From: Anaerolineae bacterium
Lineage (GTDB): Bacteria; Chloroflexota; Anaerolineae; 4572-78; J111
Assembly (NCBI GenBank): GCA_023382535.1
Contig: JAHDWA010000009.1
Span: 175,333-239,332, forward strand
Direction of reading: 5' to 3'
Length of the DNA: 64,000 nt
Below the pieces are notes generated by a model, which saw only the letters and a program-made list of their open reading frames with translations, searched no databases and was not told the origin of the DNA. The position numbers were made by a program, and so were the translations under genes. Numbering within the stretch: the stretch's first letter is position 1; each line of letters starts with the position of its first letter. Below, one piece after another: positions 56,949 to 62,916 of this stretch.

Positions 56949-57596
56949 ATGTCTAAGCTTCGGGTCAATAGTTTCTCAATATCCATTGATGGCTACGGCG
57001 CCGGACCGAACCAGAGTCTGGAGAACCCGCTCGGCGTCGGCGGCGAATCCCTCCACGAATGGATGGTTGCCACTCGAACGTTTCAACAGACGTATGGCAA
57101 CGAAGGCGGCGCCACGGGTGTGGATGACGAGTTTACGGCCCGTGGCTTCAGCAACATTGGCGCCTGGATTCTTGGCCGCAACATGTTTGGCCCGATCCGA
57201 GGTCCCTGGCCCGACGACAGTTGGCAGGGGTGGTGGGGCGATACGCCACCGTACCATACCCCGGTTTTCGTGCTAACCCATCACCCCCGCGCATCAATTA
57301 TGATGGATGGCGGGACCACCTTCCACTTCATCACCGATGGCATTCACGCGGCGCTAGAGCGCGCCCGCCAGGCGGCCAAGGGGCAGGATGTTCGGCTTGG
57401 CGGGGGTGTGGCCACTATCCACCAGTATCTCCAAGCCGGGCTCATTGACGAATTGCATCTGGCGATCAGCCCGATTCTGCTCGGCTCCGGCGAACACCTT
57501 TTCGCCAACCTCGATACAGTCGCCCTGGGCTACCACTGCACCGAGCACGTTGCGACTGCCGGAGCGATGCATTGCATTCTGACGAAGCGATCATAG
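56949..57596 (+). CDS. RibD_C/dihydrofolate reductase-like protein 4
   Basis: A 215-residue member of the group with NSFSISIDGYGAGPNQSLENPLG, IGAWILGRNMFGPIRGPWPDDSWQGWWGDTPPYHTPVFVLTHHPR and LGGGVATIHQYLQAGLIDELHLAISPILLGSGEHLF, the longer subtype with a WWGDxPPYHxPVFVLTH insert. AAAGGAG precedes the ATG. It is likely co-transcribed with the preceding reductases. Confidence 0.87.
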   Translation: MSKLRVNSFSISIDGYGAGPNQSLENPLGVGGESLHEWMVATRTFQQTYGNEGGATGVDDEFTARGFSNIGAWILGRNMFGPIRGPWPDDSWQGWWGDTPPYHTPVFVLTHHPRASIMMDGGTTFHFITDGIHAALERARQAAKGQDVRLGGGVATIHQYLQAGLIDELHLAISPILLGSGEHLFANLDTVALGYHCTEHVATAGAMHCILTKRS

Positions 57597-57707
57597 GGGA
57601 GTGCCGGCAACGTACGCTATTATCTGCACCTAAAACCCTCCACCATTACCCCATACCTTTATAATTGAATTGCCAAGAAAAATAAACAACTCAGGAGGTT
57701 TTAGCAG

Positions 57708-58004
57708 ATGAAACTGAACCATATTAATCTTACGGTCACGGACGTGCCGCAGACTGTAAAGTTTCTGGAAAAGTATTTCGGGTTACGGAGCCAGGGAGGG
57801 GACAACAAATTCGCCGTGTTGTTCGACGATGATAGATTGGTTCTCACTTTGATAAAGACAGGTCAGGCCAAATATCCCAGCACCTTTCATATCGGTTTTG
57901 GACAGGAGAGCGAAGAGCGGGTGAATGAGATCCACCAGCGCTTGCGGAACGACGGGTTCTATGTTCAGGCTCCGGGTGGGTTTATGGTAGAGGTTCTGGC
58001 CTGA
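57708..58004 (+). CDS. Short VOC superfamily protein
   Basis: A 98-residue single VOC module: LNHINLTVTDVPQTVKFLEKYFGLRS, FAVLFDDDRLVLTLIKT, FHIGFGQESEERVNEIHQRLRNDGF and YVQAPGGFMVEVLA. It is 15-20 residues shorter than usual between the last helix and strand, an internal deletion that may affect the pocket. AGGAGG precedes the ATG. Confidence 0.82.
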   Translation: MKLNHINLTVTDVPQTVKFLEKYFGLRSQGGDNKFAVLFDDDRLVLTLIKTGQAKYPSTFHIGFGQESEERVNEIHQRLRNDGFYVQAPGGFMVEVLA

Positions 58005-58113
58005 CCCTTGCCGTTGAAAAGCAGGCTGTCGTTTTTGTTCAAGACAGGCTCCCCTTATTGTGTTATGATTTAAGGGTAAAAAACTTTGCCTTAACTACTC
58101 AAAGAGAGGTGCT

Positions 58114-58590
58114 ATGAATCGCTTTATGCAGGAAAAATGGTCGTGGATTGAAGCGTCTCATGTCATGCGCACGGAATTGCTGGATACTCTCAGCGATGCC
58201 GATTTAGCTTTCAATCCTGGGGGGCAGAATCTGACCTTGGGTGCGCTCTGTCGCCAAATGGGTGAGATTGAGCATTCGTACATCCAGTCGTTGAAAACCT
58301 TCAAGCAAGATTGGTCCTATCGCAACCCGGACGCGGGATTGGAAACCAGTACGGCTAAGCTCAGGGCGTGGTATCAAATGCTCGACGAGCAGATGAAAGG
58401 GGTAGCCTCGGCTTTTTCGGATGAAGATTTGCAGAAGCTCGTAGACCGCTCAGGAGGTTTTTCAATGCCCGTCGAGATGCAACTCGACGTTTACCTCCAA
58501 GCGCTGCTGATTTTCTTCGGCAAGGCCACCATCTACCTGAAGGCCATAAATAAGCCACTTCCTGACACGATACGGGAGTACATTGGATAA
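58114..58590 (+). CDS. DinB-like four-helix protein
   Basis: A 158-residue protein of the DinB/YfiT-like superfamily: helix 1 WSWIEASHVMRTELLDTLSDADLAFNPGGQNLTLGALCRQMGEIEHSYIQSLK carries a candidate metal-binding His (in EIEHSY), and a long helical C-terminus follows; a third expected ligand is not obvious. DinB proteins act as thiol S-transferases or unknown detoxification enzymes. AGAGAGGTGCT precedes the ATG. Confidence 0.8.
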   Translation: MNRFMQEKWSWIEASHVMRTELLDTLSDADLAFNPGGQNLTLGALCRQMGEIEHSYIQSLKTFKQDWSYRNPDAGLETSTAKLRAWYQMLDEQMKGVASAFSDEDLQKLVDRSGGFSMPVEMQLDVYLQALLIFFGKATIYLKAINKPLPDTIREYIG

Positions 58591-58601
58591 GGAGAAACAC
58601 G

Positions 58602-59198
58602 ATGAGAAAGATTAATGTTCTAACTTTTATTACCCTTGATGGCGTCATGCAGTCGCCTGGTGGGCCAGAGGAAGACTCCACAAATGGCTTCAGGTACGGT
58701 GGGTGGACTGTTCCGTACTTTGATGATTTTCTTGGCCAGACCATGGGCGAGCAAATGAGCAAGCCATTTGATTTGTTATTGGGAAGAAAAACATTTGAGA
58801 TATTTGCCTCATATTGGCCGCAGCATGAAGATGAATGGCCTGGCATCAACAGTGTCACAAAGTATGTTGCTTCGAATACGCTTACAACCCACGAGTGGCG
58901 TAACTCGGTCTTTTTAAGGGGCAACGTTGTGGACGAAATTAAGCAGCTCAAACAACAAGAGGGTCCCGACTTACAAGTGCATGGGAGTGGCCAACTCATC
59001 CAAACCCTTTTGAAACATGATTTAGTGGATGAATTTTGGCTAAAAATATTCCCCATCACCCTGGGTACAGGCAAGCGCTTATTTGCGGAAGGAACCATAC
59101 CCACCGCTTTCGCTCTGCATGAAGCCAAAACTTCGCCGGCCGGGGTCATTGTGGCTTCCTACAAGCGCGCGGGAGAGGTAAAAACAGGATCGTTCTGA
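58602..59198 (+). CDS. RibD_C/dihydrofolate reductase-like protein 5
   Basis: A 198-residue member: RKINVLTFITLDGVMQSPGGPEEDSTNGFRYGGW, DLLLGRKTFEIFASYWP, KYVASNTLTTHEWRNSVFL and LQVHGSGQLIQTLLKHDLVDEFWLKIFPITLGTGKRLFAEG. The HGSG nucleotide loop and GRKTFE motif are intact. AAGGAGAAACACG precedes the ATG and the start is 11 bases after the DinB stop. Confidence 0.88.
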   Translation: MRKINVLTFITLDGVMQSPGGPEEDSTNGFRYGGWTVPYFDDFLGQTMGEQMSKPFDLLLGRKTFEIFASYWPQHEDEWPGINSVTKYVASNTLTTHEWRNSVFLRGNVVDEIKQLKQQEGPDLQVHGSGQLIQTLLKHDLVDEFWLKIFPITLGTGKRLFAEGTIPTAFALHEAKTSPAGVIVASYKRAGEVKTGSF

Positions 59199-59253: not shown

Positions 59254-60546
59254 ATGATTAATGTTACCCATCGCATTCCTGGTCTAGTGCTCACCGATCA
59301 CACCTTTCGCCTGCCGCTCGATTATACTCAACCGCAGGGGAAGCAGCTTGAAGTCTTCGCCCGCGAAGTTGTGGCGGCTGGCCGGGAAACAGCCTCGCTG
59401 CCCTGGCTGGTCTTCTTTCAGGGCGGCCCCGGTTCCGCCTCGCCCCGGCCTCTGGACAACAGCGGTTGGCTGAAACGCGCCTTGCCGGAGTACCGGGTGC
59501 TCCTGCTCGACCAGCGCGGGACGGGCCGCAGCACCCCTTTGACCTTTCAGACCCTGGCCCGTTTGACCACGCCTCAGGCCATAGCCGATTATCTTTTGCA
59601 CTTCCGGGCTGACGCCATCGTTCAGGATGCCGAATTCATCCGGCGGGAGCTGCTGGGCGAGCGAGAAAAATGGAGCGCACTTGGCCAGAGCTTCGGGGGT
59701 TTCTGTGTCACTCATTACCTGTCCGCTGCCCCGGCGGGCTTAAAAGAAGCGATCATTACCGGTGGACTGCCGCCGTTGGACCGGCCCGTGGATGACATTT
59801 ATCAGGCCACCTACCGGCGGGTCAGCGAGAAGAACCGGCTCTACTATCAGCGTTACCCGGATGATGTCGAGCGTGTGCAGGCCGTGATCCGCTATCTCTC
59901 CACTCACGAGGTGTACCTGCCCACCGGTGGCCGTTTATCGCCCCGCCGCTTTCAACAACTGGGCCTGGCCCTTGGCGACAGCCAGGGGTTTGAACAAATT
60001 CACTATCTGCTCGAAGGGGCCTTTGTGATCGGCAGGACCGGCCAGGAATTGAGTTATCCTTTCCTGCGAGGGCTGGAGAATATGCAGTTCTGTGACACCA
60101 ACCCGCTGTTTGCTATCCTGCACGAAGCCATTTATTGCCAGGGGACAGCCTCACGCTGGTCGGCGGAGCGGGTCCGGGCGCAGTATCTCGAATTTGAGCC
60201 GTCACCCGACCGGCCTGTCTACTTTACCGGGGAGATGATCTACCCCTGGATGTTTGACGAGTACCAGCCCTTGCAGCCGTTGAAAGAAGCAGCGGAAATC
60301 CTGGCCCAGTATGAGGCTTGGCCGCGATTATATGACCTGGCGGTGCTGCGCCGCAATACCGTGCCGGTTGCCGCCGCCGTTTACTATAATGATATGTACG
60401 TCGAGCGGCAGTACTCCGAGGAGACTGCCCGGACCATTCAAGGTTTGAAGCTGTGGCTCACCAATGAATACGAACACAACGGTCTCCGCGCCGATGGTGA
60501 AAGGGTACTGGACCGGCTGCTCGGGCTGCTGCATGGCCACTTTTGA
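59254..60546 (+). CDS. Alpha/beta hydrolase, proline iminopeptidase family
   Basis: A 430-residue serine hydrolase: oxyanion-side LVFFQGGPGSASPRP, VLLLDQRGTGRST, nucleophile elbow ALGQSFGGFCVTHYL with catalytic Ser in GQSFGG, acidic residue region PVAAAVYYNDMYV and catalytic His region near NEYEHNGLRADGERV. This fits prolyl aminopeptidase-like peptidases releasing N-terminal proline. The ATG at 59254 is assumed; a TTG at 59218 is also in frame and neither has a strong ribosome site. It precedes the MerB-like selenoprotein candidate by 76 bases. Confidence 0.85.
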   Translation: MINVTHRIPGLVLTDHTFRLPLDYTQPQGKQLEVFAREVVAAGRETASLPWLVFFQGGPGSASPRPLDNSGWLKRALPEYRVLLLDQRGTGRSTPLTFQTLARLTTPQAIADYLLHFRADAIVQDAEFIRRELLGEREKWSALGQSFGGFCVTHYLSAAPAGLKEAIITGGLPPLDRPVDDIYQATYRRVSEKNRLYYQRYPDDVERVQAVIRYLSTHEVYLPTGGRLSPRRFQQLGLALGDSQGFEQIHYLLEGAFVIGRTGQELSYPFLRGLENMQFCDTNPLFAILHEAIYCQGTASRWSAERVRAQYLEFEPSPDRPVYFTGEMIYPWMFDEYQPLQPLKEAAEILAQYEAWPRLYDLAVLRRNTVPVAAAVYYNDMYVERQYSEETARTIQGLKLWLTNEYEHNGLRADGERVLDRLLGLLHGHF

Positions 60547-60622
60547 TCCCACGTGCGGCCACAAGGTAATCTCTTTTGACCGGCCTTGTGCATTTGAGCA
60601 CTCAGGCGTTAAGGGGGAATTT

Positions 60623-61309
60623 ATGGAAACACAGGATGAAGCCCTCATTTGGGCCGTGCGGGCCTTCATTTATGAACAGTTTGCGGCCACGACCCGGCCG
60701 CCCACGGTCGAGGAAACAGCCGCTCACTTTCGCTTGAGTTCAGAGCAGGCGGCGACCCTCTACCAGGAACTTCATCACCGCCACGCCCTGTTTCTCGATG
60801 CTGGTACCTCGACTATCCGCATGGCTAATCCCTTTTCCGCCATTCCCACCCCATTTCGGGTCTACGCCCGGGGTCGGGTCTACTGGGCCAACTGTGCCTG
60901 GGATTCTTTGGGTATTCCGGCGGCCCTTCACAGCGAGGCCAGGATCGAAACCCGCTGCGCCGAGAGCGGGCAGCCGGTCACTTTGGCGGTGCAGCAAGGT
61001 CGGGTCGTTGACCAGGGTGAACTGGTCCATTTCCTGGTCCCCTTTCGCCGCTGGTACGACGACTTGGTTTTCACCTGAGCGACCATTCTGCTCTTCCGGT
61101 CGGAAGAGGTCCTCCAGCGCTGGTGCGAGACAAACCATCGGTCACGGGGTGAAGTCCTGTCGGTGAGCCAGGTGTGGGAACTGTCCCAAGAGTGGTATAG
61201 TAACCGCCTGTTAGTGGAGTATCACGGTCGGTCTCTGGCTCAGGTCGAGGCCATCTTTAAACAGGTCGGTCTGGTTTCGCCATTCTGGTCCATAACTTCA
61301 CCCGAGTAG
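60623..61309 (+). CDS. MerB-like (alkylmercury lyase family) protein with in-frame UGA, selenocysteine candidate
   Basis: Read through the TGA at 61076-61078, the gene gives 228 residues, close to MerB (about 212). An N-terminal winged-helix-like part (residues 6-58, PTVEETAAHFRLSSEQAATLYQEL) precedes the core. WANCAWD provides Cys91 and Asp94, equivalent to MerB Cys96 and Asp99. The UGA is codon 152 in LVFT-U-ATILLFRSEEVLQRWC, aligning with MerB Cys159; spacing Cys91 to 152 is 61 against 63 in MerB. The 76 codons after it stay open, in frame and family-like to a TAG. AAGGGGGAA precedes the ATG at 60623. A SECIS hairpin follows the UGA. Without readthrough the protein would lose its C-terminal third and one catalytic residue. 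Confidence 0.75.
61079..61108 (+). promoter_or_regulatory. Bacterial SECIS element of the MerB-like gene
   Basis: Directly after the UGA come 12 bases, then CTCTTCC (61091-61097), loop GGTC (61098-61101), GGAAGAG (61102-61108): a perfect 7-bp stem with the GGUC apical loop found in the E. coli fdhF SECIS, 19 bases from the UGA, inside the usual 16-37 window. Confidence 0.75.
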
Positions 61310-61384
61310 GCCCCACTTGATCTTTATAGGTCCCTTTGTGAATATTCGGATTAGCCCGAAGATAGCTACAAGGGGAGATACACA

Positions 61385-61935
61385 ATGCAACCCGGAAAGG
61401 GCTGGCGCCTGGGCGTTTTGATCTGCTATGATAATAACGTCAACGAAAATGGCCGGATCACGGCCCTGCTGGGCGCTGATATTATTCTGGCGCCGCATCA
61501 AACAGGCGGCTGCCGGACCAGGAACCCCATTTGTTGGGAAATATCGAACGGCACCTGTGGAACAACGGCAGGCTCAGCCGGAGGCAATTGAGCGAGAATT
61601 TCTGAGCGACAAAGGCCGGGGCTGGCTGATGCGCTGGCTGCCCAGCCGGGCCTACGATAATGGGGTTTTCCTGATCTTTGCCAACGGGGTCGGCGTGGAT
61701 GACGACGAGAGCCGCACCGGCAATGCCATGATCCTTGATCCTTACGGCCGGATTCTGGTCGAGACCTGGAAAGCGGGAGATGAATGGGTGGGTCGTCGCT
61801 GATCTGGACGCAACCTTATTGGAGCGTGCCACGGGGCGGGAGTGGATTGCAGCGCGCCAGCCCGAGTTGCGTGGCTTGCTGACCCAACGCACCGGCCGGG
61901 AGCCGGATACTCACGAGCTTAAATTTGAAGAATGA
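61385..61935 (+). pseudogene. Nitrilase/carbon-nitrogen hydrolase, frameshifted
   Basis: Pieces in different frames line up as one nitrilase: RLGVLICYDNNVNENGRITALLGADIILAPHQTGGCRTRNP with the catalytic Cys in LICYDNN, then LLGNIERHLWNNGR, QPEAIEREFLSDKGRGWLMRWLPSRAYDNGVFLIFANGV, GNAMILDPYGRILVETWKAGDE and, shifted again, WVVADLDATLLERATGREWIAARQPEL. At least three single-base indels, one in a run of G, break it, and the N-terminal 100 or so residues with the Glu of the catalytic triad are missing. Confidence 0.75.
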
Positions 61936-61965
61936 TACGTTTACAGTTTCCAGAGAAGATCAGCT

Positions 61966-62401
61966 TTACCAGAGCGAGGTTGAGATCGTTAATAATTTAA
62001 CGTGCTTCGAAAGGGACTTTGATGGGCAGCTTTTCCCCCAGCACCGGAGTGGGCCGGGTGCGCCGAGCCAGTCGCCAGTGTTTCCATAAACAGTAATCGT
62101 GCCGCCGCTCATGCAGGCGCCCAGGTGCATCCCCGCGTTCCCTCGAATCATTATGTTCCCCTGGGTCATCGCCCGGCCAATCCACTTAACCCGGGCCAGG
62201 TCTCCGCGCAGCTCCAGACAGGTGCTTTTTTTCGCCTTCTACCTCGAAGAAATCCCCCAGGCAGCACTGCCGTTTGCCCAGAAAAACCGCCAGATTCAGG
62301 ATTTCCGCGTGAGTCAAGCTGCCGATGATATCGGGCGAGATCGCCTCGGCTTCCAGCGGAGTCGCCAACTCTTCCTTGAGGGTCAACGTGACTGCGTTCA
62401 T
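61966..62401 (-). pseudogene. Formylmethanofuran dehydrogenase subunit C, frameshifted and truncated
   Basis: The start VTLTLKEELATPLEAEAISPD...GDFFEVEGEK is a canonical FwdC N-terminus. A seven-A run (minus strand, about 62226-62232) shifts the frame; one base fewer would continue STCLELRGDLARVKWIGRAMTQGNIMIRGNAGMHLGACMSGGTITVYGNTGDWLGA, the GxxGxxxG beta-helix of FwdC. It then ends far short of the usual 270 residues, with an unrelated tail. The ATG overlaps the stop of the fwdB-like gene (ATGA). Confidence 0.8.
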
Positions 62402-62916
62402 CTTGCCGTCACCTCACTCATAGCTGCATCAGCCAACCGCAACCCTGGGATCATCTTATTCGCTGCTGTCCCGTTTACCCTGGCGGCTACCTCTGCCTGA
62501 ATGCGCCGCAGCACCTCCTCATCGGTAGCGATGGACTTGCCTCCCAACTGGGCGGCTATTTCAGTCGGGCCGTGTCAGAGCGAGGAATGGCTGTCAATGA
62601 TCCCGCCGAGCCGTTCCGCCAGCATCACCGCCTCGCGCTGGGTCTCGCAGGTGACATTGCTCAAGCCGTAGATCAGCGGGTGATTCGCCCGGACGAGGAA
62701 ATCCGCGGCAGCAGCTACGGCCGCTTCCAGCGGGGCCGGCCGCCCATCAATAAGCGCCGGGGGATAATGGGCTTCGGCGGTATGGTTGGTAAACCAGGCT
62801 TCCCCCAGGCTGCAAGCGCGTTTGGCCTTGAAGATGCGATCTCCCTCGGTATGCAGTTCGATATCATCGCAGACACAGCCGCAGAAGGTGCATATCGCAT
62901 TGTTGACGATAGCCAT
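62398..62916 (-). pseudogene. Shortened second fwdB with in-frame UGA at the metal-ligand cysteine
   Basis: ICTFCGCVCDDIELHTEGDRIFKAKRACSLGEAWF gives the same four Fe-S cysteines as intact FwdB. At codon 114 (62577-62575) a TGA stands where FwdB has its Mo/W-binding Cys (EVCHGPSG); the reading resumes in frame as HGPTEIAAQLGGKS and stays open for 58 codons to a TGA that overlaps the fwdC start. Selenocysteine at this site is known in FwdB of some methanogens. The product would be only 172 residues against about 430, so most of the pterin-binding body has been deleted. Either a selenoprotein gene that later decayed or a plain TGC-to-TGA loss fits. Confidence 0.65.
62539..62556 (-). promoter_or_regulatory. 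SECIS-like hairpin after the fwdB-like UGA
   Basis: In RNA order, GCC-G-CCC, loop AGUU, GGG-A-GGC: a six-pair stem with one G-A mismatch, loop starting 26 bases after the UGA and with G as second loop base, within bacterial SECIS rules. It is weaker than the MerB element. Confidence 0.4.

Follow-up and report, generated by a model that had tools for sequence, protein, structure and literature searches.

In the window, a stretch of 64,000 nucleotides from contig JAHDWA010000009.1 of an Anaerolineae bacterium (Chloroflexota), a MerB-like gene was found whose reading frame contains a TGA at codon 152. The gene starts with ATG at 60623, with a GGGGG run 5 bases upstream, and the frame after the TGA stays open for 76 codons up to a TAG stop at 61307-61309. 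An earlier note on this DNA had described the in-frame TGA and the open codons behind it and had read the gene as a MerB-like selenoprotein. The observation was confirmed from the sequence, and the interpretation, that the UGA is read as selenocysteine (Sec) under the direction of a selenocysteine insertion sequence (SECIS) just 3' of it, is well supported by the comparisons reported here. Despite its apparent stop codon, the gene is most likely intact. The features of the locus are collected in Table 1.

Table 1. Features of the predicted selenoprotein gene (positions in the window)
Feature	Position	Strand	Details or basis
Predicted MerB-like selenoprotein gene	60623..61309	+	228 residues, Sec at 152, stop TAG
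GGGGG run, likely ribosome binding site	60613..60617	+	sequence; function inferred
Cys91 codon (MerB Cys96)	60893..60895	+	alignment; invariant in 53 rows
Asp94 codon (MerB Asp99)	60902..60904	+	alignment; invariant in 53 rows
UGA, predicted to be read as selenocysteine 152 (MerB Cys159)	61076..61078	+	TGA in 80/80 loci
SECIS-like hairpin CTCTTCC-GGTC-GGAAGAG	61091..61108	+	codon constraint, stem covariation, covariance model R1

The read-through protein matched the Pfam MerB model PF03243 with 110.1 bits (cut-off 27). The part before the UGA alone reached 68.4 bits, and the part after it reached 25.2 bits (E 1.8e-5), slightly below the cut-off and in line with the earlier statement that the downstream codons are family-like. 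Across 53 aligned rows, conserved residues downstream of the UGA include Trp185, Leu187, Trp191, Tyr192, Arg195 and Trp222. In alignments to MerB2 (PDB 5c17) and MerB (PDB 3f2g), the second catalytic Cys, numbered 159 in the literature and 160 in some PDB titles, is matched by residue 152, and Cys91 and Asp94 fall on MerB Cys96 and Asp99, so that both active-site assignments of the earlier note were borne out. The catalytic roles of these residues are those given in the accessible part of PMC8261052. No June 2026 NCBIfam model scored above its cut-off for the tested members of the clade, and the gene most likely belongs to a large family of bacterial MerB relatives that lacks annotation and has Sec in place of a catalytic Cys.

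Scanning species genomes yielded 152 confirmed loci related to the gene. In the best 80 of these, for which the DNA was read, codon 152 was TGA without exception (80/80), and the frame after it was open for 66-110 codons; the record titles name Chloroflexota, Acidobacteria, Gemmatimonadetes, Actinomycetota, Planctomycetota, Verrucomicrobia and Deltaproteobacteria. A protein search returned 1496 relatives, and of the 120 listed, the window's own protein among them, 117 stop at residue 151, directly ahead of the UGA, a count of protein rows, for most of which the DNA was unseen. The remaining three read on, with Cys at residue 152 in P0049 and P0104 and Trp in P0009. When later searches were added, the column could be placed in 118 of 129 hits, the other 11 being dropped. 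TGA lay within four codons of the column in 106 of these (97 distinct genes, as the 106 include repeat fetches), and a Cys codon stood at the column in 12/118, all of them in more distant genes, with Trp in none. Cys at this column was found in L097, L099, L100, P0049, P0104 and MerB itself. Thus, the homologues carry UGA or Cys at the column where the earlier note had proposed to look for either.

The hairpin that had been reported 12 bases past the UGA was verified: it consists of a perfect 7-bp stem (61091-61097/61102-61108) closed by a GGTC loop (61098-61101). When its 18-mer was searched at up to 3 mismatches, this site was the only match in the window (0.07 matches expected). Taken singly, the sequence has an unremarkable fold energy (z -1.35 and -1.33), and the case for the hairpin therefore rests on comparison. 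Among the 97 distinct genes, the Ser codon at +8 is TCG in 92/93 genes, compared to a background of 239/959 (25%) in the same genes, and the Arg codon at +7 is CGG in 77/81 genes against a background of 320/1360 (24%). When the window gene, L098 and 48 of the 80 loci (50 genes in all) were aligned by codon, 54 columns had the same degenerate amino acid in 70% or more of the genes; the commonest codon accounted for 96% at Phe158, 93% at Arg159, 100% at Ser160 and 73% at Glu161, the four columns that lie in the hairpin, and for no more than 76% in any other column. In 95 distinct sequences, two-sided changes were found at 6 of the 7 stem pairs, and the structure exceeded 500/500 shuffles on four measures and 495/500 on a fifth. 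It also exceeded all six slid versions on four of the five measures, the version slid by +3 giving 11 further pair types versus 10 and a covariation score of 0.144 versus 0.146. The outermost stem pair is weak, being unpaired in 42/95. The pair closing the GGUC loop is C-G in the window, U-A in the 13 genes of clade B (see below) and A-U in L175, and other loops, such as AGTC and GTGA, occur in some loci. The covariance model R1, whose training set included the window sequence, matched 61076-61117 with 55.4 bits; the next best match, at 10.8 bits, was on the opposite strand of the same site. A scan of 60000-62000 against Rfam down to E 5 gave no match at the UGA. Judged by the codon constraint and the two-sided stem changes, the hairpin is constrained as an RNA element, which answers the SECIS check suggested in the earlier note. 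As is generally known, the SECIS of E. coli fdhF is a short GGUC-loop hairpin just 3' of the UGA. The window hairpin shares this position and loop and differs in that its stem sequence is nearly fixed across phyla in the family.

The sel genes, which the earlier note had wanted sought in the genome, were counted in genomes of relatives, namely 50 genomes carrying the gene, drawn from the 80 loci, and selA, selB and tRNA-Sec were indeed found to occur together with the gene. In 47/50 of them selB was above cut-off, and the three others (G003, G025 and G036) all have selA above cut-off. tRNA-Sec exceeded the gathering score in 46/50, with at least 62 bits in 43; the scores of 47-48 in the other three were taken for tRNA-Ser cross-hits. 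In a sample of the phylum, selA or selB was present in 15/15 genomes with the UGA form versus 0/3 genomes with the close Cys form. For 14 of the 15, selB matched at E 1e-60 or better, and G278 has selA and tRNA-Sec instead; in the three genomes with the close Cys form (G067, G085 and G125), no selA, selB or tRNA-Sec match was found at the thresholds used. The contrast has a p of 0.0012, uncorrected for kinship, with the three Cys genes being close kin, and it omits G106 (partial hit, column absent) as well as the more remote Cys MerBs (E above 1e-18), several of them located in selB-bearing genomes. Among 11 genomes tested, selA was present in all of those with the UGA form (8/8).

Three explanations of the UGA other than Sec were considered. 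Broken genes lie nearby in the window (a frameshifted nitrilase-like gene and a possible fwdB remnant, both described below) and would fit a sequencing error or a true nonsense mutation in a decaying merB. However, TGA stands at the same codon in all 80 other loci and nearly all listed relatives end one residue before it, indicating that the UGA is no error, and the downstream protein and the hairpin are under selection, which renders error or decay exceedingly improbable. Decoding of the UGA as Trp or Cys, through a reassigned code or a suppressor tRNA, could account for the Trp at residue 152 in P0009 and for Trp at both UGA columns in 15/120 rows of the double-UGA family described below (protein rows, DNA unseen), but these rows could also stem from short contigs whose genes were called with UGA as Trp. 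Moreover, TGA also follows gene ends in the family, and L035 and L038 have a second in-frame TGA at the expected protein end, suggesting that UGA is not simply reassigned. Under such decoding the SECIS hairpin would be superfluous; the UGA forms are accompanied by tRNA-Sec, selA and selB; and all 12 loci without TGA at the column have Cys codons and none a Trp codon. Reassignment or suppression is thus most unlikely.

Some termination occurs at UGA codons that encode Sec, and the UGA might accordingly be a regulated stop, with the 151-residue product as the main protein and the hairpin as a selenium switch. Against this stand the conserved downstream residues, which match the MerB profile, and the loss of one catalytic residue that the truncated protein would suffer, so that we consider a regulated stop very unlikely. 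We favour, with a probability of roughly 0.88, a full-length MerB-fold protein in which the second catalytic Cys is Sec, decoded through a SECIS, and which is most likely a carbon-metal lyase. Within this reading, Sec decoding and the active-site position are well supported by the sequence comparisons, and the most likely activity is cleavage of a carbon-metal bond, as in MerB. SelB-GTP carrying Sec-tRNA would bind the GGUC-loop hairpin, allowing the UGA to be decoded as Sec; in the protein, Cys91 and Sec152 would bind a soft metal, and Asp94 would protonate the leaving carbon (protonolysis). Among chemical mimics of MerB, selones cleave organomercurials faster than their sulfur analogues, according to the accessible part of PMC11639659. 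For methylmercury as the natural substrate we see about an even chance; another organometal or an organometalloid is a less probable candidate, and something else altogether is rather unlikely.

Several results weigh against this reading. The MerB equivalog models score the protein far below their cut-offs (NF033555, 48.8 bits of 200; NF009710, 56.7 bits of 193). Only 4 of the 50 genomes carrying the gene have merA above cut-off, and the other 46 have none. Clustering of the neighbours at the 80 loci and the window end, with no family search and no Sao models run on the neighbours, revealed no conserved neighbour of obvious metal function, and the neighbours common to up to 17 loci resemble synteny among Anaerolineales. 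In addition, selB is frequent in the phylum anyway (above cut-off in 241/301 genomes), and its presence alone proves little. As merA is mostly absent and no conserved mercury-handling neighbour was seen, a classical role in mercury resistance is unsupported by the context. The low equivalog scores, the rarity of merA and the lack of shared mer neighbours would also fit a MerB-fold selenoprotein that is not an organomercury lyase, such as a protein that binds metals or acts in redox reactions, or a lyase acting on another element, which is possible but remains the less probable assignment; a Sec-containing carbon-metal lyase is the one we prefer.

In a 66-row tree, the window gene pairs with L001, from a groundwater metagenome-assembled genome of Chloroflexi (support 85/73). 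The Cys forms P0049/P0104, L146/L147 and, less firmly, P0171 are nested within UGA clades, and the simplest reading of this topology is therefore that they may have reverted from Sec to Cys. Plasmid records gave 30 protein matches, all below 60% identity, and three of them (L145, L146 and L147) were inspected. Two of the Cys forms, L146 and L147, are on plasmids (of Paraburkholderia sp. PGU19 and Sphingomonas panacis), and in these, besides Cys at column 152, a Cys replaces the Asp at the Asp94 column (APCMWC and APCLWC). On plasmid 1 of Rubrobacter radiotolerans RSPS-4, a degraded copy of the Sec-MerB gene (L145, 2432-2898) is annotated as a short merB (2432-2701); the UGA is retained in this relic, and the frame and the hairpin are lost. 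In viral contigs, no relative was confirmed and no exact match to the TGA-N12-hairpin pattern was found.

The search of the phylum also uncovered genes in which both the Cys96 and the Cys159 column hold an in-frame TGA. They fall into two clades, one of which recurs in 11/327 genomes from the class to which the closest relative of the window gene belongs. Clade A comprises three paralogues in G154 (L103, L116 and L117) and L141 in G456, and its relative L138 in G123 has Cys at the first column, a nearly identical context and a single UGA; selA and tRNA-Sec are present in all three genomes. A protein search with a clade-A piece of 159 residues, whose next codon is the second TGA, listed 120 of 616 relatives, all as protein rows with their DNA unseen. 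Of these, 117 end at alignment positions 157-162 and one ends at 146; Cys stands at the first column in 118/120, and Glu occupies the Asp99 column wherever it is readable (119/119). P0201, the product of the G154 gene, stops at the first UGA, and P0171 reads on with Cys at both columns. The double form of clade A thus seems to be an uncommon offshoot of a widespread family with a single Sec. For clade A (L103, L116, L117 and L141), the hairpin that follows the first UGA was considered as a SECIS and found unconvincing on its own: a similar stem is retained in L138, which has Cys there, and the hairpin may therefore be explained by protein coding.

In clade B (L118, L160, L161 and L164-L173), each UGA has its own codon-invariant hairpin in 13/13 genes, and only here does the comparison strongly favour a SECIS following the first UGA. 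We consider it very likely that the MerB superfamily includes genes with Sec at both Cys96 and Cys159, one clade of them with a SECIS for each UGA, the product of which would be a Sec-Sec organometal lyase. Such an enzyme would grip the metal with two selenolates. Neighbour clustering of the 13 double-UGA contigs revealed no conserved partner of obvious metal function, and a double-Sec MerB was not found in print in the open-licence papers searched, supplements excluded. P0009, P0244, P0246 and P0257 have Trp where their relatives have UGA, probably because UGA was taken for Trp when genes were called on short contigs, and database rows of this kind may reveal hidden selenoproteins.

As the earlier note had suspected, MerB-like selenoproteins were predicted before. 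The accessible part of a 2026 review (PMC13188914) describes SaoL (NF040728; Haft and Gwadz 2023, via the same review), which the SAO (Sec-assisted organometallic) operon encodes as its organometallic lyase, as a MerB-like selenoprotein with the Sec motif CU. SaoL and the window protein are both MerB-like predicted selenoproteins; however, the motif is TUA in the window protein, the SaoL model has 159 positions compared to 228 residues, the window protein scores 51.9 bits against its cut-off of 140, and none of 400 sampled genomes of the phylum matched NF040728 above cut-off. An alkylmercury lyase MerB-like selenoprotein appears in the accessible part of a 2022 review (PMC9312934), and the main texts of the two papers cited there for it (PMC2398784 and PMC5029168) contain no mention of MerB, alkylmercury or mercury; nor does the main text of the deep-Sep paper (PMC12013277). 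The selenoprotein family table of a 2020 review (PMC7435645) lists an 'Organic mercuric lyase MerB2', so that a MerB2-type prokaryotic selenoprotein was already predicted; the part seen gives the name only, with no sequence, position or taxon, and the comparison is by name alone. With MerB and MerB2 themselves (PF03243; PDB 1s6l, 3f2g and 5c17), the window protein shares the fold, the equivalents of Cys96 and Asp99 and the second catalytic position, and it differs from them in having Sec for Cys159, a longer C-terminal tail and no adjoining mer genes seen. The gene thus represents a known kind in a new and large variant.

According to its accessible part, a large MerB survey was screened by Cys96, Asp99, Cys159 and Cys117, with 99Ser and 117-variants also kept (PMC8261052). 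With a screen that requires Cys159 and gene callers that cut at the UGA, many genes of the MerB superfamily would have been missed or filed as hypothetical. If the enzyme is active, organometal detoxification would extend to many uncultured lineages, most of the tested ones being without merA, and selenium supply would be tied to the cycling of mercury or another metal. The single- and double-Sec forms would also offer a natural test of the effect of one or two selenolates on the carbon-mercury bond, for which small-molecule mimics have served so far (PMC11639659, accessible part).

Upstream of the gene, the window contains RibD_C-type reductase genes at 56949 and 58602 (within 56949-59198), a glyoxalase-type gene at 57708 and a DinB-like gene at 58114 that is below the Pfam cut-off. 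Adjoining it downstream, a nitrilase-like gene is spread over two frames (61384-61802), through frameshift or decay. Further on, the minus strand carries at 62398-62916 the start of a gene for formylmethanofuran dehydrogenase subunit B (fwdB), whose score of 122 bits against TIGR03129 is under the cut-off of 328 because only the beginning of the gene is present. FwdB has a CHGP motif, the Cys of which we take to be catalytic. At this Cys (PDB 8rja and 5t5i), fwdB has an in-frame TGA (62575-62577), which makes it another candidate Sec codon, lying 1.5 kb away from the MerB-like gene; the fwdB gene breaks off soon after this TGA and may be a remnant.
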